Source: Streptacidiphilus anmyonensis
GTDB lineage: Bacteria > Actinomycetota > Actinomycetes > Streptomycetales > Streptomycetaceae
Reading direction: 5' to 3'
Assembly (NCBI RefSeq): GCF_000787855.1
Contig: NZ_BBPQ01000013.1
Coordinates: forward strand, 1 to 64,000
Length of the DNA stretch: 64,000 bases
Part shown: one piece after another, positions 2,689-14,098 of the stretch
Layout of the letters: every line of letters starts with the position of its first letter
Position numbering within the stretch: the stretch's first letter is position 1
Notes under the pieces: generated by a model
Seen by the model: the letters and a program-made list of their open reading frames with translations, nothing else
The model's database searches: none
Told to the model about the DNA's origin: nothing
Position numbers and translations under genes: made by a program

Positions 2689-2924
2689 GCGGGAGGACCT
2701 GGACGCACCTGCAAGAGCGGTTAGCGGATCTCGCGTCGCTGGGCGCGGAGTTGCACGCGGCCCTGGAGCAGGGGCAGTACCGGTTCCTGCTCGCGGTCAT
2801 CGCGCCGATGGCGACCGACGCCGCGCGCCTGGCCTCCGACCTGGAGACGGAGCTGCGCAACGAGATGGCGGAGAACGGCGTGGAGCTGCCCCCGCTCGAC
2901 CTGGGCGCAGGTGGTGCGCCGTGA
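2685..2924 (+). CDS. Small helical element protein with a TTA codon
   Basis: A 79-residue protein that I do not recognise. It is predicted to be largely helical: TWTHLQERLADLASLGAELH is followed by a second helix and an acidic third one. Start is the GTG at 2685, which overlaps the stop of the previous gene in a GTGA; the next gene overlaps its own stop in the same way, so translation is probably coupled through the whole operon. The leucine in QERLADL is encoded by TTA (2721-2723), a rare codon in these genomes read only by the bldA tRNA. That could delay expression of the operon until development. Confidence 0.6.
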   Translation: MSGRTWTHLQERLADLASLGAELHAALEQGQYRFLLAVIAPMATDAARLASDLETELRNEMAENGVELPPLDLGAGGAP

Positions 2925-4333
2925 CCTGGGCAGATGGGGCCGCCGGCTGCGGTGGCCTGGTCGGGGCGGCGTGCGAGATGCAGCGCCAGCAACTCTCCGA
3001 CGACAGCGGGGTCGGGGTGCGGATCTTCTGGACGATCGTGATCCTGGGGACTGCGGCAGCGCTCAGCCTGCGCATCCTCGCGCCGACGCTGCGGGCCAAG
3101 TATCCGCAACTCTGGTGGAGGCTGATCGGCTTCCCGCTCGCCTGGGTGCGGGTGCTGTGGACCTGGCGCAAGCTGGCGGCCCTGCGGGACCTGTCGGTGG
3201 CCAAGCGTCCGCCGCTCGCGCTGATCGGCGGCGATGTGTTGATCCGCGGCCGGTCGCTGCGCCCCGCCGCTCCACGGCTCGGGATGCCGAGGGTGGAGCA
3301 CGGTGGCCTGGTGGTGCGCGTGAAGATGCACCCCGGGCAGGTCCCGGAGCAGTACGCGCAGGCCGCAGAGGCGATGGCGCACGCCTTCAAGGTGTTCCGG
3401 GTGCTGGTGCACTCCGAGCAATACGGGTACGTGCACCTGCGCCTGATCGCCTGGGACCCGCTCGCGAACCCGACCGTTCCCGCGCACCACCGGGGTCAGT
3501 TCATGCGCGCGTCGGTCGGGCAGTGGGAAGACGGCTTCACCTGGCACATCGACCTGCGCGAGATACCGCACTGGCTGATCGTCGGCGCCACCCGCTCCGG
3601 CAAGTCCACGCTCCTCGCCGCGCTGGTGACGGAGTGGGCCCGGCAACCGCTCGCCCTGGTCGGCATCGACCTCAAGGGCGGCATGGAACTTGGCCTGTTC
3701 GAACCACGCCTCTCTGCCCTGGCGACGACTCGGGCGGAGGCGACTGACCTGCTGGAGTACCTGGTCGACCTCGCGTTGGACCGGATGCGCACCTGCCGCG
3801 CGCACGCTGCGCGTTCCATCTGGGACCTGCCCGAGAACCTGCGCCCGGTGCCGGTCGTGGTCCTGGTCGACGAGGTCGCCGAGCTGTACCTGATGGCGTC
3901 CAACGCCGAAAAGGCGGAGGTTGCGCGCGTCTCCACGGCGTTGCTGCGCATCGGCCAGCTCGGTGCTGCGCTCGGGGTGCACCTGCTCATCGCGGGTCAG
4001 CGCGTGGGATCGGACTTGGGCACCGGGGTGACGGCGCTGCGCGCGCAGCTGGGCGGCCGGGTCTGCCACCGCGTCAACGACCCCGCCACTGCCGAGATGG
4101 TCCTGGGCGACGTCAGCCCCGACGCCGTGGTGGCGGCGCAGCAGATCAGCCCCACCCAACAGGGCGTTGTCATCGGGTACGCCGACGGGCGCGTCATGCG
4201 CGGACGGTCCCTGCTGGTCACCCCCGACGAGGCACGCCGGACATCCGCCCGGTATGCGCACATGACTCCGCCGCTGCCCGTGCTGCAGCAGGTCGAGGAC
4301 GCGGTGCCGGCCGGGGCGGTGGTGGACCAGTGA
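2921..4333 (+). CDS. FtsK/SpoIIIE-type DNA translocase, TraSA-like conjugation protein
   Basis: A 470-residue ATPase. A membrane segment lies near residues 32-50. The FtsK-like motor domain follows, with Walker A GATRSGKS (about residue 223) and Walker B VVVLVDEVAEL (about residue 322), then GQRVGS and RVCHRVNDPATAEMVLG, the usual FtsK-family C-terminal segment. In actinomycete elements a single protein of this type (TraB/TraSA) forms a hexameric pore at the hyphal tip and pumps double-stranded DNA into the recipient. No relaxase is needed, and none is seen here. Start GTG overlaps the previous stop; the stop overlaps the next start. Confidence 0.9.
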   Translation: MTWADGAAGCGGLVGAACEMQRQQLSDDSGVGVRIFWTIVILGTAAALSLRILAPTLRAKYPQLWWRLIGFPLAWVRVLWTWRKLAALRDLSVAKRPPLALIGGDVLIRGRSLRPAAPRLGMPRVEHGGLVVRVKMHPGQVPEQYAQAAEAMAHAFKVFRVLVHSEQYGYVHLRLIAWDPLANPTVPAHHRGQFMRASVGQWEDGFTWHIDLREIPHWLIVGATRSGKSTLLAALVTEWARQPLALVGIDLKGGMELGLFEPRLSALATTRAEATDLLEYLVDLALDRMRTCRAHAARSIWDLPENLRPVPVVVLVDEVAELYLMASNAEKAEVARVSTALLRIGQLGAALGVHLLIAGQRVGSDLGTGVTALRAQLGGRVCHRVNDPATAEMVLGDVSPDAVVAAQQISPTQQGVVIGYADGRVMRGRSLLVTPDEARRTSARYAHMTPPLPVLQQVEDAVPAGAVVDQ

Positions 4334-4569: not shown

Positions 4570-4619
4570 CCGCAGCCCCCGGCCGATCTGCGCACACATG
4601 CGCACGGTCGGGGCTGCGG
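4570..4619. repeat. 50-base imperfect palindrome upstream of the replication gene
   Basis: Outer arms CCGCAGCCCC and GGGGCTGCGG and inner arms TGCGCA (4589-4594) and TGCGCA (4599-4604) fold into one long hairpin between the SpdA-like gene and the rep start. It could be a replication origin structure (nick site or single-strand initiation site) of the rolling-circle system, or a terminator/attenuator of the transfer operon. Confidence 0.55.
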
Positions 4620-4645
4620 CCCCACCCGCCCTGGAGACACCCGCC

Positions 4646-6055
4646 ATGACCATCCCCAACCCCTATGACAGCCCCACAGCGCGGCGGGCCTTCCTCGCCC
4701 ACCTGGACCGGCTCGCCGCGCTCACCGAAACCGAACAAGACCTCGTCCGCCTGGGCCAGATGCCCGGCCTGGGGCGCTGGTTGGAGCAGATCCACAACAT
4801 CGGCGGCTGCGCCCACCCGATCTACATCACCGGCCACACCACCACCCGCGACACCATCACCGGGGACGTGCTGCGCCACTACACCACGCGCGACGAACCC
4901 GGCGGGCGGCTCGCGATCCGCTGCGGCAACCGGCGCGCCGGACTCTGCCCCTCCTGCTCCCGCCTCTACCAGGGCGACACCTTCCACCTCGTGCGCGCGG
5001 GCCTGATCGGCGGCAAGGGAATCCCCGACGACGTGCGCACCCACCCCCGCGTCTTCGCCACCCTCACCGCCCCATCCTTCGGGCCTGTGCACCGCGCGGG
5101 CACGTGCCATAGCAACCGGCGCGGACGATGCGCACACGGACGCACGCGCCGCTGCCGGACTGTGCACGCCGACGATGACCCGCGCATCGGACAACCCCTG
5201 TGCGCAGACTGCTACGACTACGTCGGGCATGTGCTGTGGAACGCGCACGCGCCCCGACTGTGGAACGCCTTCTGCATCAATCTCTACCACCATCTCGCGG
5301 CGGCGGCCGGGGTCAAGCGCTCCAGGATCCGCAAGCACGTGCGCATCTGCGCGGCGAAGGTCGCCGAGTACCAGGCGCGCGGCGCGATCCATTTCCATGC
5401 CGTGATCCGGATCGACGGACCCGACGGCCCCGGCAGTACGCCCCCTGCCTGGGCCACCACGGGACTGCTGATCGAGACCATTCGCACCGCGGCCGGTGCC
5501 GTGCGCCTCTTCGCCCCGCCCTCATCCGCATACGGCGAACGCCAGCTGCCCTACGGGGACCAGTTCGAAGCACACGCGCTCCGCGCAGACGCCGGCGGCA
5601 CGCTCACAGACGAACAGGTGGCGGCCTACGTCGCCAAGTACACGACCAAGAGCGCCCACGAATCCGGCGCGCTTGACCACCGGATCGGCCACCCCGACCG
5701 CATCTCGCACCTGCCCCTCACCGCGCACCACCGGGCCCTCATCGGGACCTGCTGGCGACTCGGCAACGTGCCCGAACTCGCGCACCTCAACCTCCACGCC
5801 TGGGCACACACCCTCGGCTACCGAGGACACTGCCTCACCAAGAGCCGCACCTACTCCACCACCTACACCGAACTCCGCGCCGAACGCGCCCGCCACCAAG
5901 GCGCGCTCTACACCCACGACACCGAGGACACCGTCACCGCGTCGGCCTGGTCCTACGCGGGCTCGGGCCACACTCCCGGTGAAGCTCTCATCGCACTGGG
6001 CATTGCTGAGAATGTGGCGCGGAGCCGGGAACTGGCTCGCGGTGCGCGCGCATGA
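4646..6055 (+). CDS. Rolling-circle replication initiator, RepSA-like
   Basis: A 469-residue protein like RepSA of pSAM2, which nicks the element origin for rolling-circle replication after excision. Seen in the sequence: cysteine-rich segments (CGNRRAGLCPSC near residue 95; CHSNRRGRCAHG and CADCYDY further on) that may bind zinc; the HUH-type motif IHFHAV (about residue 250); and a tyrosine in the YVAKYTTK context (about residue 330) as the likely nicking residue. I start at the ATG at 4646 because GGAG lies 9 bases before it; an upstream in-frame ATG at 4598 lies inside the palindrome. The stop overlaps the next start (ATGA). Confidence 0.88.
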   Translation: MTIPNPYDSPTARRAFLAHLDRLAALTETEQDLVRLGQMPGLGRWLEQIHNIGGCAHPIYITGHTTTRDTITGDVLRHYTTRDEPGGRLAIRCGNRRAGLCPSCSRLYQGDTFHLVRAGLIGGKGIPDDVRTHPRVFATLTAPSFGPVHRAGTCHSNRRGRCAHGRTRRCRTVHADDDPRIGQPLCADCYDYVGHVLWNAHAPRLWNAFCINLYHHLAAAAGVKRSRIRKHVRICAAKVAEYQARGAIHFHAVIRIDGPDGPGSTPPAWATTGLLIETIRTAAGAVRLFAPPSSAYGERQLPYGDQFEAHALRADAGGTLTDEQVAAYVAKYTTKSAHESGALDHRIGHPDRISHLPLTAHHRALIGTCWRLGNVPELAHLNLHAWAHTLGYRGHCLTKSRTYSTTYTELRAERARHQGALYTHDTEDTVTASAWSYAGSGHTPGEALIALGIAENVARSRELARGARA

Positions 6056-6258
6056 ACGGAGAGTCTTCGGCGACGGACGACGCGGACTGGGCCTGGGCAG
6101 TCGACCACGCAGAGAGCTCCCCGGCGTGGTCAGAGAAGCGCTGGCGGAAGATCAACGCTCTTCTCGGCCTTGAGGTCACGCAAGGGCGGTCGGCCCCTGC
6201 ACGGTCGGGCGCAGGGGCCGCCCCTTCGGTCACTCCTTGTGGCGATACAAGGGGGTGA
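6052..6258 (+). CDS. Small acidic, tryptophan-rich element protein
   Basis: A 68-residue protein starting in an ATGA overlap with the rep stop. The N-terminal 42 residues are distinctive (DWAWAVDHAES, then SEKRWRKINALLGLEV). The remainder is compositionally random and runs through the terminator hairpin into the 3' end of the integrase, so the functional part is probably the first 45 residues. Similar short W-rich proteins often follow rep in streptomycete elements; their role is unknown. Because no excisionase is recognisable, it is one of two candidates for a recombination directionality factor. Confidence 0.55.
   Translation: MNGESSATDDADWAWAVDHAESSPAWSEKRWRKINALLGLEVTQGRSAPARSGAGAAPSVTPCGDTRG
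6184..6224. terminator. Bidirectional terminator between element operon and integrase
   Basis: A perfect 9-bp stem GGCCCCTGC/GCAGGGGCC (6192-6200 and 6211-6219), with extra pairing outside it (GGGCGG with CCGCCCC). It separates the rightward operon from the leftward integrase gene. Confidence 0.7.
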
Positions 6259-7876
6259 GCCGTTCCCGGACCGGCCTTCCCCGCCCGACTGCGGATGCAA
6301 CCACGATCGCCGTGAGTGTGGCTTCGATATAGCCACGCTTCTCTGTGAGTGAAAGATCGTCCCAGATCGCGCGAAGGTCGATCGGCTGCTCAACCGCTCC
6401 CCGTGTCCGGCGCTCATACTTGATGCGGTCGCGAAGCAGGGCACGCTCTTTGGCGTCGGCTTCCGCGATGAACTCGAAGAACGCTTCCTTGCTGACCAGT
6501 CGCGCGGATCGCTGTTCCTTCCAGTCAGCGATGTCTTCTTGGAGGCGCGCCAACTCCTCTTCGTGCGCCCAGCGTTGTGGCTTGAGAATGGCTTTGCGCC
6601 TCTGAGCCTCAAGTTCGTACTTTGCGATCACCAAGTTCTTCACGGCCTTGTCGGTTTCAGGGCCATCGATCGTGATCCCCCCGCACCCCTTCCCTGACGA
6701 CTTGCTTGGGCAAACGTAGTAGAAGAAGCCAGCGGGCTTCTTTGCCCGGTTCGGGGCTTTCGTGGCACGCAAGGGGGCCCCGCAATCGTTTTTGCCGCAC
6801 CTAAGTGTGCCGGTGCTCAGGTACTTCCGCGCATTGTGGCCGGCCCCGGGCTCAGGGTTCTCCCCCAAGATTGCCACGAGGTCTTTCCAGGTCTCGGGCT
6901 CTAGTATCTTGTCCCAGTGCCCGAGGATGGGTTCCCCACCCTCGTCGTAGACAACCTCGACGCGCCGGTTCTCCGCGCCGGTTAGCGGATCAAAGACGGA
7001 GGCGCTTCGATAGGAGTACCCGCATATCCTTGGATTGCGCAGGATGTAGCGAATGGTATAGCCGGTCCACTTATTGCCTTTGGGGGTGGCGAACCCAGTC
7101 CGATTCCACTCGGCGGCAATCGTGAAAGGTGACCCGCCTTCAAGGATTCGCCTTGCGGCAATCCTGATCTTTTCCGCCTCGCTATGATTCAGAGTCTTCT
7201 TGTCGGCATTCCATCCGATAGGACGTGGCCCACCAGTCGTCAGACCAGCTTCCTTCATCGCCCGATGCTTACGCTTCACCCGACGTGCCGTGTCCGCAGA
7301 CTGCTTATTACTAGTGGCAACGAGGATCCGTGCCACCGTGCGACCATTGTCGGTAAGCAGATCCAGCGTCCCGGTTATGTCTATGATGGGCCGCCGGAAG
7401 TTCTCGACCACTTCAATCGCATCCTCAAGGTTGCGATTGTCGCGAGTCAGGCGGTCTATGTCGTAAACGATGAGTCCGTCGATTCGCTGCCCGTCGGGGG
7501 TAATCCCGTGCTTAAGGTCATCGAATGCGGCTTCGAGCACCGGGCGCTGAACGCGGTATGCGATCCTGCCGCCAGGAAGACGGACCCGCCTCCGCTTCCA
7601 GGCCGATGTGTCGGGCTCCTCGTACGTGTAGATGTAGGTTCCACCGCGGGCCTCTACGAACTGACGAACGTCCTTCATCTGTTCTTCGCGACCTTTGATG
7701 TCGCGCCCGTTCATGGGCACGAACCTGCGGCCCTCGGCCTTGCCTGAGTCGACGGGCGTCGATGCCGCGGTGAGGAGCGCGTCGTCAAGTTCAAACGAGA
7801 GTCGGACCAGTCCGGCGATGTTCATCCCGCTCAGGTCGCCCCAGTGTGCACGCTGTACCAGGTCGTCAGCAGCCAT
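6230..7876 (-). CDS. Large serine recombinase (site-specific integrase)
   Basis: A 548-residue large serine integrase. It has an N-terminal resolvase domain with the nucleophile in IAGLVRLSFELD (Ser27 from this start), YEEPDTSAWKRRR, LIVYDIDRLTRDNRNLEDAI and NKQSADTARRVKRKH at the end of the catalytic domain. The recombinase domain follows (GWNADKKTLNHSEAEKI, TIRYILRNPRICGYSYR), then a zinc ribbon (LRCGKNDCG with YYVCPSKSSGKGCGG) and a helical end. Such enzymes integrate DNA without host factors, using short att sites, and need a directionality factor to excise. The start is uncertain: ATGs at 7891, 7876 and 7825 are possible. I prefer 7876 because relatives carry a similar leader before the catalytic strand. 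Confidence 0.92.
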   Translation of the reverse strand: MAADDLVQRAHWGDLSGMNIAGLVRLSFELDDALLTAASTPVDSGKAEGRRFVPMNGRDIKGREEQMKDVRQFVEARGGTYIYTYEEPDTSAWKRRRVRLPGGRIAYRVQRPVLEAAFDDLKHGITPDGQRIDGLIVYDIDRLTRDNRNLEDAIEVVENFRRPIIDITGTLDLLTDNGRTVARILVATSNKQSADTARRVKRKHRAMKEAGLTTGGPRPIGWNADKKTLNHSEAEKIRIAARRILEGGSPFTIAAEWNRTGFATPKGNKWTGYTIRYILRNPRICGYSYRSASVFDPLTGAENRRVEVVYDEGGEPILGHWDKILEPETWKDLVAILGENPEPGAGHNARKYLSTGTLRCGKNDCGAPLRATKAPNRAKKPAGFFYYVCPSKSSGKGCGGITIDGPETDKAVKNLVIAKYELEAQRRKAILKPQRWAHEEELARLQEDIADWKEQRSARLVSKEAFFEFIAEADAKERALLRDRIKYERRTRGAVEQPIDLRAIWDDLSLTEKRGYIEATLTAIVVASAVGRGRPVRERLTPLYRHKE

Positions 7877-7905
7877 GGAGTTAACATACATCTGACGATG
7901 TGTTG
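7877..7905. other. Probable right attachment junction (attR)
   Basis: The integrase start and the first residues of the radical SAM family core (YPHKTAYR, coded from about 7904) are only some 25 bases apart. Serine integrases act at short sites next to their own gene, so the crossover should lie here. The inverted repeat ACATC-TGAC-GATGT at 7888-7901 is a plausible part of the integrase-binding site. The exact two-base core cannot be set without the left junction or an empty site. Confidence 0.55.
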
Positions 7906-9223
7906 GTACCCGCACAAGACGGCGTACCGCCCGCTGTCCCCGCGCCCGCGCCTCGCGGACCTGTGGGCCGCGGAGCCGAAGCACGCCCTGTCGTTCTACG
8001 CGCACATCCCCTTCTGCGAGGTCCGCTGCGGCTTCTGCAACCTGTTCACCCGGATCGGCGCTCCGGACGGTCTGAGCACCGCCTACCTCGACGCGCTGGA
8101 CCGTCAGGCCGCCCGGACCGCCGAGGCCCTGAACGCCGCCCCTGCCGCTCCCGGCGACGAACCGCACTTCGCCCAGGCCGCGTTCGGCGGCGGCACGCCC
8201 ACCTTCCTGACGGCGGACGAACTCGTCCGCCTCTGCGACATCACCGAGCGCCGCCTCGGCGTCGACCTGCGCGCGATCCCGCTCTCCGTCGAGGCCTCGC
8301 CCGCGACGGCGACGGCCGACCGGCTCGCCGTCCTCGCGTCACGCGGCGCCACCCGGCTCAGTCTCGGCGTGCAGAGCTTCGTGGACGCGGAGGCCCGCGC
8401 GGCGGTCCGGCCGCAGCATCGCGCCGACGTCGAGGCGGCGATCGGCCGCGTCCGCGACGCGCGGATACCGGTCCTCAACCTCGATCTCATCTACGGCATC
8501 GACGGCCAGACCGAGGCGAGTTGGCGCCGCTCGCTGGACGCGGCCCTCGCCTTCGAGCCCGAGGAGCTGTACCTCTACCCGCTCTACGTCCGCCCGTTGA
8601 CCGGTCTGGGACGCCGCGCCACGGCCGGTGGGTCCGATCCGGTCTGGGACGCCCAGCGCCTCGCCCTGTACCGCCAGGGCCGCGACCATCTGCTGGCGCA
8701 CGGCTACGAGCAGGTCTCCATGCGGATGTTCCGCCGTGCCGCCTCCCCGCAGGCGGGCGGCACCGAGTACTGCTGCCAGACCGACGGGATGGTGGGGCTG
8801 GGCTGCGGCGCCCGCTCCTACACCAGCCGCCTGCACTACTCGTTCGACTACGCCGTCTCGACCGCCGAGGTGCGCGGCATCATCGACGACTACGTCGCGC
8901 GTCCCGCAGCGGACTTCGCGTACGCCGAGGTGGGCTTCGCGATGACGCAGGACGAGGCCCGACGCCGTCATCTGGTCCAGTCGCTGCTCCAGGCCGAGGG
9001 CTTGGAGGTCGCCGACTACCGGCGCCGCTTCGGCAGCGATCCGTCCGACGACTTCACCGCCGAGCTGATCAGGCTCGACGAGCGCGGCTGGCTCGTCGCC
9101 GCCACCGCCCAGGGCGGCCGGATCCGCCTCTCGCCGGAGGGGTTGGCGCACTCCGACGCGATCGGTCCCGCGTTCTTCTCGACCCAGGTCCGCGCCGCGA
9201 TGGCCGCCTACGAGACGAGGTGA
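7898..9223 (+). CDS. Radical SAM protein, STM4012 family (5' end replaced by element DNA)
   Basis: A 441-residue radical SAM enzyme related to HemW/coproporphyrinogen oxidase-like proteins. It has FYAHIPFCEVRCGFCNLFTR with the CxxxCxxC cluster motif (about residues 44-51), AAFGGGTPTFL and SLGVQSF, plus the HemN-type C-terminal part. The YPHKTAYRPL start segment and the STM4011 partner directly downstream identify the STM4012 family, whose pathway is uncharacterised. Family members normally have about 10-15 more residues before YPHK. Those are missing, and the frame instead runs into element DNA. In-frame starts there are ATG 7898 and GTG 7844, neither with a good ribosome binding site. The gene may therefore be weakly translated or switched off by the insertion. 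Confidence 0.85.
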   Translation: MCWYPHKTAYRPLSPRPRLADLWAAEPKHALSFYAHIPFCEVRCGFCNLFTRIGAPDGLSTAYLDALDRQAARTAEALNAAPAAPGDEPHFAQAAFGGGTPTFLTADELVRLCDITERRLGVDLRAIPLSVEASPATATADRLAVLASRGATRLSLGVQSFVDAEARAAVRPQHRADVEAAIGRVRDARIPVLNLDLIYGIDGQTEASWRRSLDAALAFEPEELYLYPLYVRPLTGLGRRATAGGSDPVWDAQRLALYRQGRDHLLAHGYEQVSMRMFRRAASPQAGGTEYCCQTDGMVGLGCGARSYTSRLHYSFDYAVSTAEVRGIIDDYVARPAADFAYAEVGFAMTQDEARRRHLVQSLLQAEGLEVADYRRRFGSDPSDDFTAELIRLDERGWLVAATAQGGRIRLSPEGLAHSDAIGPAFFSTQVRAAMAAYETR

Positions 9224-9227
9224 CCCC

Positions 9228-10235
9228 GTGGACGACGACGCGAACAACCCGAACAGCCCGAGCGACCTCGACGACCTCAGCCGCGCGCGCGGCGCGCGCG
9301 ACGCGCTGACCATCCTCTACCGGGGCCCGCTCGCCTCCTGCGACTACGACTGCCCGTACTGCCCGTTCGCCAAGCGCCGCGACAGCCGGGCCGAGCTGAC
9401 CGCCGACCGCGAGGCGCTGGAGCGCTTCGCGGCCTGGGTGGGCGAGCAACGGGAGACCCGGCTCTCGCTGCTGTTCACGCCGTGGGGCGAGGGCCTGGTC
9501 CGTTCCTGGTACCGGCGCACTCTGGCCGAGTTGAGCCTGCTTCCACACGTGCGGCGGGTGGCGATCCAGACCAACCTCAGCCACCGCACCGACTGGGTCG
9601 AGCGGGCCTGCCCGGCGACGCTGGCCCTGTGGACGACGTACCACCCGGGCCAGGTCGGCCATGACCGCTTCCTCACCAAGTGCCGCGAGCTGGACGCGCG
9701 CGGCGTCCGATACAGCGTGGGCGTGGTCGGCGACCCGGCGCACCTCGACGCGGCGCGGCGGATGCGCGCCGCGCTGCCCGAGCACGTCTACCTCTGGGTC
9801 AACGCCCAGGAGGGGCGCCGGTACTCCGATGCCGAGGCCGAGCCGTGGACGGCGCTCGACCCGCTCTTCCCGTTCAGCCGCGACCCGCACCCGAGTGCGG
9901 GGCGCGCCTGCCGGACGGGCGAGACGGTGGTCTCGGTCGACGGTGAGGGAACGGTCCGGCGCTGCCACTTCGTGAAGCAGCCGCTCGGCAATCTCTACGA
10001 CGGTTCCTTCCGGGCGGCGCTACGCCCGCGGCCGTGCCCGCTCGCCGTCTGCGACTGCCACATCGGCTACGTGCACCTGGAGTCGTTGCCGCTCTACGAC
10101 GTCTTCGCGGGGGGCGTGCTGGAGCGGATCCCGGCCGCCTGGCCGCGGCCGGCGAGCCCCGAGCGGGCGGCCGTGCCGAGCCGGTCGAGGCCCACGACCA
10201 CGGCCGCGAGCACCACGAACTCGACGGTCAGCTGA
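9228..10235 (+). CDS. Radical SAM protein, STM4011 family
   Basis: A 335-residue radical SAM protein, four bases after the STM4012-type gene and surely cotranscribed. The cluster motif is CDYDCPYC (about residues 38-45), after the opening strand ILYRGPLAS. Conserved downstream elements are LFTPWGEGLVRSWYR and ALWTTYHPGQV. A second cysteine set near the C-terminus (CRTGE, RRCHF, CPLAVCDC) fits an auxiliary cluster or twitch-type domain. The last 30 residues (after ERIPAAW) are serine/threonine-rich and overlap the convergent membrane protein gene. They look like read-through beyond the usual family end. The product of this enzyme pair is not known. Confidence 0.85.
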   Translation: MDDDANNPNSPSDLDDLSRARGARDALTILYRGPLASCDYDCPYCPFAKRRDSRAELTADREALERFAAWVGEQRETRLSLLFTPWGEGLVRSWYRRTLAELSLLPHVRRVAIQTNLSHRTDWVERACPATLALWTTYHPGQVGHDRFLTKCRELDARGVRYSVGVVGDPAHLDAARRMRAALPEHVYLWVNAQEGRRYSDAEAEPWTALDPLFPFSRDPHPSAGRACRTGETVVSVDGEGTVRRCHFVKQPLGNLYDGSFRAALRPRPCPLAVCDCHIGYVHLESLPLYDVFAGGVLERIPAAWPRPASPERAAVPSRSRPTTTAASTTNSTVS

Positions 10236-10825: not shown

Positions 10826-11138
10826 TGCCTCGCGACGCTTCGACCGGATCGCCGCACTCTACCGACGGGTAGCCCCTTCGGGAAGCTTTCCGATCGATCG
10901 ACATCACGCCACACCAAACGCATATTTCCAGCCAAGTCGGGCAGATTTCTCCGCATACGATGCACCCTTACCGCACTTGTGTTCGAGCGCCTCGCGGATG
11001 CCGGGCCGACGAGGGGCCGCAGGCGACGAACGGCTCAGACCCTTCTGTCGATCCTCTGTCCCGGCTCGGAGGATGGACGCGCTCGGCGTGCCACCCGGCG
11101 CGACGAGGGGTTAGGTGGACTTGGGAGGAGGAGTAACC
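10826..11138. other. Divergent promoter region of the membrane protein and egtA
   Basis: No gene seen. It must hold the promoters of the leftward Pr6Pr-like gene and the rightward ergothioneine operon. A small inverted repeat CTACC-GACG-GGTAG lies at 10859-10872, and the stretch 10900-10980 is relatively AT-rich. No known operator is recognised. Confidence 0.4.
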
Positions 11139-12449
11139 GTGGACCATGAACTCGATGCCGGCAGGCCGCACGAGCTCACACTCGACAGGGCCGCCGGCCA
11201 CATCCACGGCGTGTGCTTCAAGACCGGCCCGCCCGGAACCGCGGGTGTCGAACTGGAATGGCTGGTCCTCGACCACGCACAGCCGCACCGTCCCGTACCG
11301 CCTGAACGCCTCGACGCGGCGCTCGCGCCGCTTCCGACCACCGACGGACGGCTGCCCAGCGGCACACTGCTGACCCGCGAACCCGGCGGGCAGCTCGAAC
11401 TGAGCACATCGTGCGCACCCGGCCCGCTCGCCTGCGTCACCACGGCCGCCGACGACCTCGCACTGGTCCGGCGGGCCCTCGCCGAGCAGGGCCTGGATCT
11501 CTCCGGCTACGGCCTCGACCCGTTCCGCGACTCGCCGCGGGTGCTCGACCATCCGCGCTACGCGGCCATGGAGGCCTACCTCGACCGCATCGGTCCCTGG
11601 GGCCGGATGATGATGCGATCCACCGCCGCCGTCCAGCTCAACCTCGACGCGGGCACCGAGAACGGCGACATCGACGGCTACCGCGCCCGCTGGCAGCTGG
11701 CCCACCGGCTCGGCCCGGTGCTGGTCGCCGCCTTCGCGAACTCCCCGCTGTGGCACGGCAAGCCCACCGGATGGCGGTCCACCCGCCAGGCCGTCTGGGA
11801 ACACCTCGACCCGAGCCGCACCCGTCCCCCGCAGGGCCTGCCCGCGGACGCCGACCCGCGCGACGCGTGGGCGCGTTTCGCCCTCGACGCCGGGCTCCTC
11901 TGCCTGAAACGCACCCCGCCCGCCGACTGGACCGCCCCGCCCGGCCACAGCTTCGCCTCGTGGCTCCAGGGCGGCATCACCGAGCGCCCGGCCACCCAGG
12001 AGGACCTGGACTACCACCTGAGCACGCTCTTCCCGCCCGTCCGCGCCCGTGGCTGGCTGGAACTGCGGATGATCGACGCCCAGCCCGGCGACGGCTGGCT
12101 CGTCCCGGCACTGCTCACCGCGGTGCTGCTGGACGACCGCGACGCCGCCCGGGCGGCGTGGTCGGCGACGGAGCCACTGTGTCGGGCGTCCTCCCCGTTC
12201 CCCCCGCAGTCGGTCTGGTCCCGCGCCGCGCGGCTGGGCGCGTCCGCGCCCGAGTTCGCCAAGGCCGCGCTGGCCTGCTTCGAGGTCGCGGACGCGGCGC
12301 TCACCCGCGCCGGCGTCCCCGCGTCGATGCGCGAGGCCGTCGCGGCCTTCGCCGAGCGTTACCCCGCCCGCGGGCGATGTCCCGCCGACGACCTCCTGGA
12401 CGACCGCGTCGCTGGTCGACCCGCCCATCCGGAAGGACTCCTCCGATGA
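11139..12449 (+). CDS. egtA: Ergothioneine biosynthesis glutamate-cysteine ligase EgtA
   Basis: A 436-residue ligase that joins glutamate and cysteine to gamma-glutamylcysteine, the sulfur donor for the EgtB step. Recognisable parts are GVELEWLVLD (glutamate-binding strand), EPGGQLELSTS, GRMMMRSTAAVQLNLDAG and WLELRMIDAQPGDGW, all of the GCS2/EgtA type. Start is the GTG at 11139 because GGAGGAGG lies 8 bases upstream; an in-frame GTG at 11115 precedes that site. It is the first gene of egtA-egtB-egtC-egtD, and its stop overlaps the egtB start (ATGA). Confidence 0.92.
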   Translation: MDHELDAGRPHELTLDRAAGHIHGVCFKTGPPGTAGVELEWLVLDHAQPHRPVPPERLDAALAPLPTTDGRLPSGTLLTREPGGQLELSTSCAPGPLACVTTAADDLALVRRALAEQGLDLSGYGLDPFRDSPRVLDHPRYAAMEAYLDRIGPWGRMMMRSTAAVQLNLDAGTENGDIDGYRARWQLAHRLGPVLVAAFANSPLWHGKPTGWRSTRQAVWEHLDPSRTRPPQGLPADADPRDAWARFALDAGLLCLKRTPPADWTAPPGHSFASWLQGGITERPATQEDLDYHLSTLFPPVRARGWLELRMIDAQPGDGWLVPALLTAVLLDDRDAARAAWSATEPLCRASSPFPPQSVWSRAARLGASAPEFAKAALACFEVADAALTRAGVPASMREAVAAFAERYPARGRCPADDLLDDRVAGRPAHPEGLLR

Positions 12450-14098
12450 CCGCGACCTCCCGTCCCTTCGACCCCACGAGCACGACCCCCGCCAGGAGCA
12501 CGACCGACCGTGCCGACAGGACGGGTCCGGCGGGCGCGACCGGCCCTTCCGACACCACCGGCCCTTCCCGGACGACCGACCCGGGGCGCACGACCGGACC
12601 GGCAGGCGGGCCCAGCCCGGCCGGCGGGCCCGGCCCGAAGGACAGGCTTGACGCGCGGGACGCCCGCGGCTCGGCCGCGTCGCCCGTCGGCCCCGCGACA
12701 ACGCCCGAGGGCGCCACCGAAGCCGCCCCCGAGTCCTCCGAGGCCCTTCGGGCCAAGGCGCGGGCCGCCCTGGAGCGGGCCCGGCGACGCACCCTCGCGC
12801 TCACCGACTGCCTGGACGAGGAGGAGCTCGGCGCGCAGCACTCGCGGCTGATGTCGCCGCTGGTCTGGGACCTGGCCCACATCGGGAACCAGGAGGAGAT
12901 CTGGCTGGTCCGCGCGGCGGGCGGCCAGGACCCGATCAGGCCGGACCTGGACCCGCTCTACGACGCCTTCCAGCACCCGCGTGCCGACCGGCCCGCGCTG
13001 CCGCTGCTGCCCCCTGGTCCGGCGCGTCGCTACGTCGCCGCCGTGCGCGAGCGCTCCTTCGCGGTGCTCGACGCCGCGCCCTTCGGGCGTGGCGAGGACC
13101 CGCTGCTCGCCGACGGCTTCGTCTTCGGCATGCTCGCCCAGCACGAGCAGCAGCACGACGAGACGATGCTCGCCACCCACCAGCTGCGCCGCGGCCCCGC
13201 CGTACTGCACGCACCGCCGCCCGCCCCGGCGCCCGTCGACGCGGGCGACCTCCCGGCCGAGGTCCACATCCCCGGCGGACCGTTCACCATGGGCACGGAC
13301 GACGAGCCCTGGGCCCTCGACAACGAGCGGCCCGCCCACCAAGTCGACGTGCCCGGGTTCTGGCTGGACACCGTGCCCGTCAGCAACCGCGCCTACCAGG
13401 CGTTCATGGCGGCGGGCGGCTACGAGGACCCGCGCTGGTGGAGCGCCGCCGGCTGGTCCCACCGCGTCCAGGCGGGCCTGCACGCGCCGCTGTTCTGGCG
13501 GCGCGCCGAGGACCCGGACGCGGTCGAGGGCGGCTGGCTGCGCCGCCGCTTCGGCGTGGTCGAGCCGGTGCCGCTCGACGAGCCGGTGCTGCACGTGTGC
13601 TGGTACGAGGCCGACGCCTACGCCCGTTGGGCCGGACGCCGGCTGCCCACGGAGGCGGAGTGGGAGAAGGCGGCCCGGTACGACCCGGCCACCGGCCGCT
13701 CCCGCCGCTACCCGTGGGGCGACGCGGACCCCACTGCCGAGCTGGCCAACCTCGGTCAGCGCCACCTCCAGCCCGCCCCGGTCGGCAGCTTCCCGGCCGG
13801 CGCCTCCCCCCACGGCGTACGGCAACTGATCGGCGACGTCTGGGAGTGGACCGCGAGCGACTTCGAGCCGCACCCGGGCTTCACGGCCTTCCCGTACAAG
13901 GAGTACTCGGAGGTCTTCTTCGGCCCGGACTACAAGGTCCTGCGCGGCGGCGCCTTCGGCGTCGACCCGGTGGCCTGTCGCGGCACCTTCCGCAACTGGG
14001 ACTACCCGATCCGCCGGCAGATCTTCGCCGGCTTCCGGACCGCGCGTGACGCGGCCCCCGGCGGGACCGCCGACGACCCGGCGGAGGCGCGCCACTGA
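12446..14098 (+). CDS. egtB: Ergothioneine sulfoxide synthase EgtB with long N-terminal extension
   Basis: A 550-residue non-haem iron enzyme that couples gamma-glutamylcysteine to hercynine with oxygen, forming the sulfoxide. A DinB-like four-helix part carries the iron ligands: His145 in WDLAHIGN, and His233 and His237 in HEQQHDE. A formylglycine-generating-enzyme-type domain follows ([67 protein letters not shown]). The first 100 residues are a low-complexity stretch of threonine, proline, glycine and alanine with [17 protein letters not shown]-like repeats. Characterised EgtB proteins lack it. The ATG overlaps the egtA stop; no better internal start was seen before the conserved region. 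Confidence 0.93.

Follow-up and report, generated by a model that had tools for sequence, protein, structure and literature searches.

Serine recombinases were found in 19 of the 144 actinomycete integrative and conjugative elements (AICEs) surveyed by Ghinet et al. (2011; PMC3218068), examples in the accessible part of that paper being Frankia Faln2929, Mmar2129, Mav3790 and Srot1958; some of these serine-recombinase AICEs lie in protein genes, and Faln2929 disrupts a putative endonuclease gene. Here we describe an element at the left end of a 64,000-nucleotide stretch of Streptacidiphilus anmyonensis DNA (the window; G000:C141:1-64000, with window base 1 being the contig end), which, like those elements, has an integrase (Int), a replication protein (Rep) and an FtsK-type transfer protein (Tra), with the integrase being of the serine type and the integration site lying in a protein gene. 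By contrast with theirs, its target is an STM4012-family radical SAM gene, entered at codon 25, and the likeness is one of gene content and site as described. Neither a split promoter nor codon phase is mentioned in the same part of the survey.

phiJoe and the SCO2603 element of Streptomyces are described, in the accessible part of the report on them (PMC5311408), as having a large serine integrase, an attP site 18 bp upstream of int and an attB site in an SCO2606-like radical SAM gene, 74 bp from the end of that gene, the function of which is possibly spared. That gene is a different, B12-binding radical SAM gene, whereas the window insertion cuts off the 5′ end of its target.

Tn4451 is a clostridial mobilisable transposon, and Lyras and Rood are said to have described in 2000 how the TnpX promoter of Tn4451/Tn4453 is formed by joining the ends of this serine-recombinase element. 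At the sequence level, the joined ends of the window element would likewise form a recombinase promoter, but this element is an AICE with a presumably leaderless int, and its crossover dinucleotide falls inside the putative −35 box. The integrases of ICEKp1 and ICEclc are of the tyrosine type. According to the accessible part of PMC13023037, the int gene of ICEKp1 is driven by a host tRNA-gene promoter in the integrated state, and in the circular state int of both ICEKp1 and ICEclc uses a far-end promoter; these elements integrate at tRNA genes and obtain a whole promoter from one end, whereas the window promoter would be assembled at the crossover. A literature search on STM4012 found no paper, and among the papers listed by further searches no title or abstract opening describes codon phase or a circle-junction or state-dependent int promoter in serine-integrase AICEs, subscription journals lying mostly outside the search. 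The insertion itself is of a known type; a split leaderless AICE promoter and codon phase were not found in the literature searched.

An STM4012-family gene divided at codon 25

From base 7907 rightwards, the window carries, beginning with codon 25, an STM4012-family radical SAM gene (7907-9223, + strand), which scores 615.9 bits against NF006067 (cut-off 380) despite its N-terminal truncation, with the match starting at model position 9. In a BLAST comparison of four stretches from relatives with the window, homology to the STM4012 gene began at 7906/7907, and this position, within codon 25, is the end of the element; the Y codon of YPHKTAYR occupies 7907-7909. The missing codons 1-24 are found on a second contig of the same genome (C50, − strand), which was identified using the DNA upstream of the break in relative G006, and the break there is at C50:3486/3485. 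On this strand, C50 carries in order a gene in the STM4014 position, a gene in the STM4013 position and STM4012 codons 1-24; the two upstream genes were assigned by homology to same-position genes in relatives G006 and G009, and the names STM4013/STM4014 are given to them by position and not from a model. The neighbours of an STM4012 gene are present, with the two STM4013/STM4014-position genes on C50 and, downstream in the window, an intact STM4011-family radical SAM gene identified by model (9228-10235, + strand; NF038073 409.4 bits, cut-off 200). Past C50:3486/3485, the contig continues into a helix-turn-helix regulator, an HATPase protein and small genes and constitutes the element's other end; of the proteins from these small genes, one has counterparts in three of the six related elements compared, and a second is matched in G001.

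The site is uninterrupted in all 30 homologous loci (29 homologue loci plus that of G006, with the matching genomes G014, G016, G024, G031 and G069 left out), which read PYxxYVYAYPHKTAYR or close to it. A long open reading frame (ORF) from GTG 7844 was considered as the native STM4012 start and rejected, none of the 30 homologues resembling window 7844-7903. A sequence-only reading of this DNA had placed an att site in codons near the start of a protein gene whose 5′ part is absent from the window, expected the first codons and the upstream partner genes in the left flank and an intact locus in relatives, and named a longer native start matching 7844-7903 as the observation that would speak against it; the findings on C50 and in the 30 loci agree with it on each of these counts. 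The close spacing it had noted between integrase and YPHKTAYR also stands, the distance from the integrase start codon to the STM4012 remnant being 30 bp and not about 25 bases.

The attL junction on C50 reads ..CTACGCG-TA-TCAATACATCC.., with its TA at C50:3486-3485, and the attR junction in the window reads ..GTGTTGG-TA-CCCGCAC..; the two have only GTA in common. The attP site reconstructed by joining the element ends is an inverted repeat with arms identical at 21 of 27 positions and centred exactly on TA, so that TA is taken as the crossover dinucleotide; in attR it lies at 7907-7908 and forms positions 1-2 of the STM4012 Tyr25 codon. The attP-derived arm of attR comprises the 30 bp from the integrase ATG to the crossover (7877-7906, − strand), and a spacing of 30-31 bp is kept in relatives.

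The first 7.9 kb of the window hold the element's genes: a PRC-barrel protein (623-1276, − strand; Pfam PRC 31.9 bits), a GntR/UTRA regulator in a KorSA-like position (1301-2071, − strand), an SCO3933-family regulatory protein (2302-2688, + strand; NF051478 70.8 bits, below the cut-off of 80), an FtsK/SpoIIIE-type Tra (2921-4333, + strand; Pfam FtsK_SpoIIIE 75.2 bits), a pSAM2-type replication initiator, RepSA (4598-6055, + strand; Pfam RepSA 518.9 bits, NCBIfam equivalog NF041486 487.8 bits, below the cut-off of 700) and, convergent with RepSA, a large serine integrase of 548 aa (6230-7876, − strand; ATG 7876-7874). In the six related elements compared, the GntR/UTRA regulator and the SCO3933-family protein each had matches in four, and Tra was 51-64% identical to Tra in four; the PRC-barrel protein, which is inside the element, had no match in these six and is perhaps cargo. 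The assignment as a large serine integrase rests on Resolvase, Recombinase and Zn-ribbon domains in one 548-aa protein, all three above Pfam cut-offs, and on a short attP inverted repeat with an identical 2-bp crossover in attL and attR. Genes for int, rep and FtsK-type tra lie together, with int adjoining the att site, which is the AICE gene set as taken from the accessible part of PMC3218068, and chromosomal integration is marked by attL and attR. Judged by its genes, from which excision, replication and conjugative transfer would be predicted, the element is a pSAM2-like AICE with a large serine integrase; the serine-integrase AICE of the earlier reading is thereby recovered with its Int, RepSA and FtsK-type Tra modules all present.

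What the sequence itself shows is the pair of junctions, the divided gene, the unoccupied site of the relatives, the dyad of the reconstructed attP and the gene set of an AICE; the best account of these is an AICE integrated, by a presumed TA crossover, at STM4012 codon 25 in this Streptomyces-like genome. Two points weigh on the other side. No counterpart of the helix-turn-helix and HATPase proteins of C50 was seen among the six related elements compared, and the element is spread over two contigs with an unsequenced gap between C50:1 and C141:1, ends that showed no overlap of 12-199 bases. The length of the element is at least 3484 + 7906 bp, plus the gap.

The crossover TA is palindromic. 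Serine-integrase polarity reportedly depends on the central dinucleotide, a finding attributed to Ghosh in 2003. According to the accessible part of PMC3836970, phiBT1 attL or attR becomes capable of self-recombination when it is given a palindromic GC core. With a palindromic TA, orientation control is therefore possibly absent, and insertion in either orientation is predicted; the window element may lack such control. For the related elements of G358 and G732 (L065, L084), a palindromic GC core is predicted from attR alone.

Related elements and their target genes

Matches to the integrase occurred in 15 of 394 genomes of the family, in 8 of 392 and 3 of 70 genomes of two genera, in 8 of 391 genomes of the order and in one of 394 genomes of the class sample, this one being the present genome; the samples overlap, and E-value limits differ between searches. 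Twenty-one related elements were fetched, with weaker matches (two in G011 and one each in G001, G172 and G008) left out. Phage and plasmid records yielded only distant integrases, with 26-31% identity among the matches listed that cover at least 76% of the query, and these were left out of the att comparison. The six related elements compared are 8.4-19.9 kb long; in G235, G237, G227 and G045 the Rep, Tra, SCO3933-like and GntR-like genes are present and follow the order of the window, and in G001 and G248 only Rep (weakly in G248) and Int were matched among the window genes. Genome G653 harbors two related serine-integrase elements (L085, L086), and one of its integrase matches is confined to query residues 47-547 and carries a TAA within it.

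Each far arm was recognised by its inverted similarity to the near arm and by a core dinucleotide shared between the two ends; 12 of the 21 elements, in eight further protein genes, thereby have both ends placed. The inverted-repeat search returned nothing usable for the far ends of G327, G653b, G560, G388, G358 and G732, the far-end search in G073 gave no usable end, and the contigs of G064 and G063 end too soon. When the flanks were joined, a frame ran through the junction without a stop in each of the 12 elements. Their targets are thioesterase-like, TrkA/potassium-channel (four elements), GH18 chitinase, ABC permease, phospholipase C, frdC-like, lactate-oxidase-like and monooxygenase (G542 and G341) genes, names that were read from translations and are not model hits. 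The lineage thus integrates into many protein genes, with STM4012 being one target among them. Automatic selection of the longest ORF across the joined flanks was rejected, having picked wrong frames in GC-rich DNA.

Several features of these reconstructions count against the conclusions drawn from them. The restored frames were fixed by protein motifs recognised by eye, and in G653a, with a TrkA/potassium-channel target, the frame appears to shift some 30 codons ahead of the junction. The choice of far ends was not blind: three of the first six (G248, G237 and G227) were not the top hit, and for the other six far ends the ranking came from a matrix built on the first seven arms, all of them with TTG, and put four at the top, G578 second and G341 third. 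When places with the same core were re-ranked by the outer 23 arm positions, excluding the TTG region, the chosen end was best in 10 of 12, G227 tying with three others; G542 and G341, which share one target, fail this re-ranking (ranks 2 and 35), and their ends are thus supported by the matrix and by gene restoration.

Crossover on codon positions 1 and 2

The crossover falls on codon positions 1-2 in the window and in all 12 restored genes, and attR alone gives the same phase for an MFS-like target (G358, G732) and an NB-ARC-like target (G064). Positions 1-2 are therefore used in 11 of 11 independent targets, represented by 16 elements, some targets running in the sense of int and some antisense to it; G073, whose site is non-coding, and G063, an unclear case, were dropped, and the four distant elements were left out of this count. 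At the STM4012 site, TA is invariant in 30 of 30 loci, and the majority bases at the wobble positions −1 and +2 reach only 73% and 60%. Recombination by serine integrases needs identical central dinucleotides, and only phase 1-2 avoids the wobble position, so that an attB placed in this way would be usable across hosts despite synonymous drift. The same phase also makes the wobble positions symmetric about the dyad. We infer that this integrase lineage puts its 2-bp crossover on positions 1-2 of conserved codons.

What we take to be the attB sequences of phiC31, TG1 and phiBT1 had matches in 34, 21 and 46 of 81 genomes, respectively, and the crossover again lay on positions 1-2 in the four loci read for each. 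The frames are, under names that we presume, pirin-like (HRGFETV), aminotransferase-like (SAGKTFSFTGWKVGW) and that of the gene in the SCO4848 position.

The regularity could alternatively be a by-product of GC-rich codon composition. Phase 0, the one seen here, is expected anyway for AT-rich dinucleotides (P 0.76-0.87 for AA and TA), and the integrases possibly just prefer G/C flanks; but after adjustment for composition with dinucleotide-by-phase frequencies from 4310 codons of the target genes, the expectation is 5.3 of 11, the observed 11 of 11 has a joint P of 9.4e-5, and the cores include GG, CC, GC and AG, for which phase 0 is not favoured. We consider the compositional account unlikely, if still deserving some weight. 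Further points tell against a codon-phase rule: G073 sits outside a coding frame, the rule was noticed after the fact and on the same data, and the three classical integrases, taken by themselves, test it only weakly (0.19 after composition correction).

A candidate integrase promoter divided by the crossover

A −10-like TATGTT (7883-7888, − strand) lies 6 nt before the integrase ATG, and TAnnnT occurs 6-7 nt before the integrase ATG in all 17 tabulated elements (the window and 16 others, with G063 and the four distant elements left out); 15 of the 17 lack a Shine-Dalgarno-like sequence at this place. Each of the 13 attP sites has TTG[AC] as the last bases of the far arm, immediately next to the core, and the resulting arrangement is TTG[AC]nn-N17/18-TAnnnT. 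The −35 slot of the window (7907-7912, − strand) reads CGGGTA when integrated and TTGATA in the reconstructed circle; across the set, this slot is chromosomal in attR and holds TTG in 0 of 17. The window attP, TTGATA-N18-TATGTT, has 9 of 12 consensus matches, and the window attR has no match. At the sequence level, −35-like and −10-like motifs thus come from opposite ends of the element, as a circle-junction promoter would have them.

In the excised circle, the left end would give TTGA and the right end TA, 18 bp and TATGTT, so that attP itself would be the integrase promoter, and the integrase start would be leaderless, with its ATG 6 nt after TATGTT. Integration would replace TTGA by the gene sequence CGGG, turning the integrase off and thereby stabilising the insert. 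We infer that the integrase promoter exists only in the circle.

Another possibility is that TTG[AC] beside the crossover is only an integrase-binding motif and that int owes its expression to another source, such as target-gene promoters or antisense transcription. As binding sites, the two attP arms mirror each other, and the corresponding position in the near arm has the related CTG in 8 of 13; TTG, however, is found there in only 2 of 13, as opposed to 13 of 13 in the far arm. Five relatives have a target gene running in the same direction as int, the promoter of which could drive int, whereas the window int runs against its target gene. In three of 13 elements (G039, G542 and G341), attR holds a promoter-like match scoring as high as that of attP, but TAnnnT at 6-7 nt before the ATG in 17 of 17, at a fixed spacing of 17-18 bp, is harder to reconcile with a binding motif. 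This explanation seems to us rather improbable, and TTG could be partly an integrase-binding feature. The promoter proposal is also weakened by the attP sites of relatives, which reach only 6-8 of 12 against a consensus that is that of E. coli; moreover, the 13 elements share only nine targets and are thus not independent.

The distant integrases of G327, G653b, G560 and G388 (L072, L086, L087 and L073; 33-39% identity) have a GTG start, preceded in three of them by a Shine-Dalgarno-like AGGAG, and a promoter-like TTGC...TACA[AC]T, identified by eye, stays at the integrated junction. Integrase regulation in these four looks different.

Predicted effect on the operon

Integration parts STM4012-STM4011 from the upstream operon genes, and the STM4014/4013-position genes keep their upstream DNA; the loss of the upstream region and first residues that the sequence-only reading had envisaged is borne out by this separation. 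Parted from the operon start, the STM4012-STM4011 half would be silent or expressed at a very low level until excision, with the STM4013/4014-position genes still being expressed.

Expression of STM4012-STM4011 could nevertheless continue by read-through from rep/tra or from an internal promoter, with translation restarting at ATG 7898. This in-frame ATG (M-C-W-YPHK) is located 9 bp before the gene remnant, rep/tra is transcribed towards STM4012, and the radical SAM domain of the truncated protein is still matched nearly end to end. On the other hand, the nearest GGAG, 17 nt ahead of ATG 7898, is by eye too distant to make a good ribosome site, int lies antisense over the intervening 1.6 kb, and the rep/tra operon is separated from int by a strong GC hairpin without a T-run between the convergent repSA and int (6188-6222, no strand assigned; minimum free energy −37.3 kcal/mol for 6165-6235, z −1.83), although 5 of 200 shuffles fold equally well and the terminator scan gave it no score. 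A sigma70-like promoter scan of window 5900-8200 found none, which is a weak negative because shuffles of the region averaged only 0.5; the absent match at the integrated junction weakly fits the split-promoter idea. Continued expression appears distinctly unlikely to us, and silencing of STM4012/STM4011 until excision is the likely outcome predicted from the sequence.

Rightwards of 7907, the gene order is STM4012, STM4011, a Pr6Pr-family membrane gene and egtA/egtB. The egtA and egtB genes (ergothioneine synthesis) occupy window 11115-14098, and the same block follows STM4012-STM4011 in relative G006.

Discussion

An artefact of assembly or an ancient rearrangement, in place of site-specific integration, would fit the location of the two halves on different contigs of a 153-contig assembly, but either is scarcely credible when the two breakpoints coincide to the base pair within the gene, the ends of the element together make a single long inverted repeat with its centre at the breakpoint, and 12 related elements have the same architecture in other genes. 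We think it quite probable that the locus as a whole is best explained by AICE insertion at codon 25, an attP-borne int promoter, silencing of STM4012/4011 and codon-phase placement. More tentative, and in our judgement a little short of an even chance, is the combination of a codon-phase rule for large serine integrases that use protein genes, an attP promoter cut by the crossover, such that host gene and integrase would both be silenced at once, and possible insertion in either orientation.

Serine integrases are major genome-engineering tools, and the reasons for their choice of sites are poorly understood. If true, a codon-phase rule would aid the prediction of attB sites and host range from genomes, and a crossover-split promoter would explain how an AICE limits its integrase after landing and would offer a self-limiting integration module. 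On the host side, the insertion disrupts, perhaps reversibly, a gene of a radical SAM operon that is uncharacterised and lies beside the ergothioneine genes.

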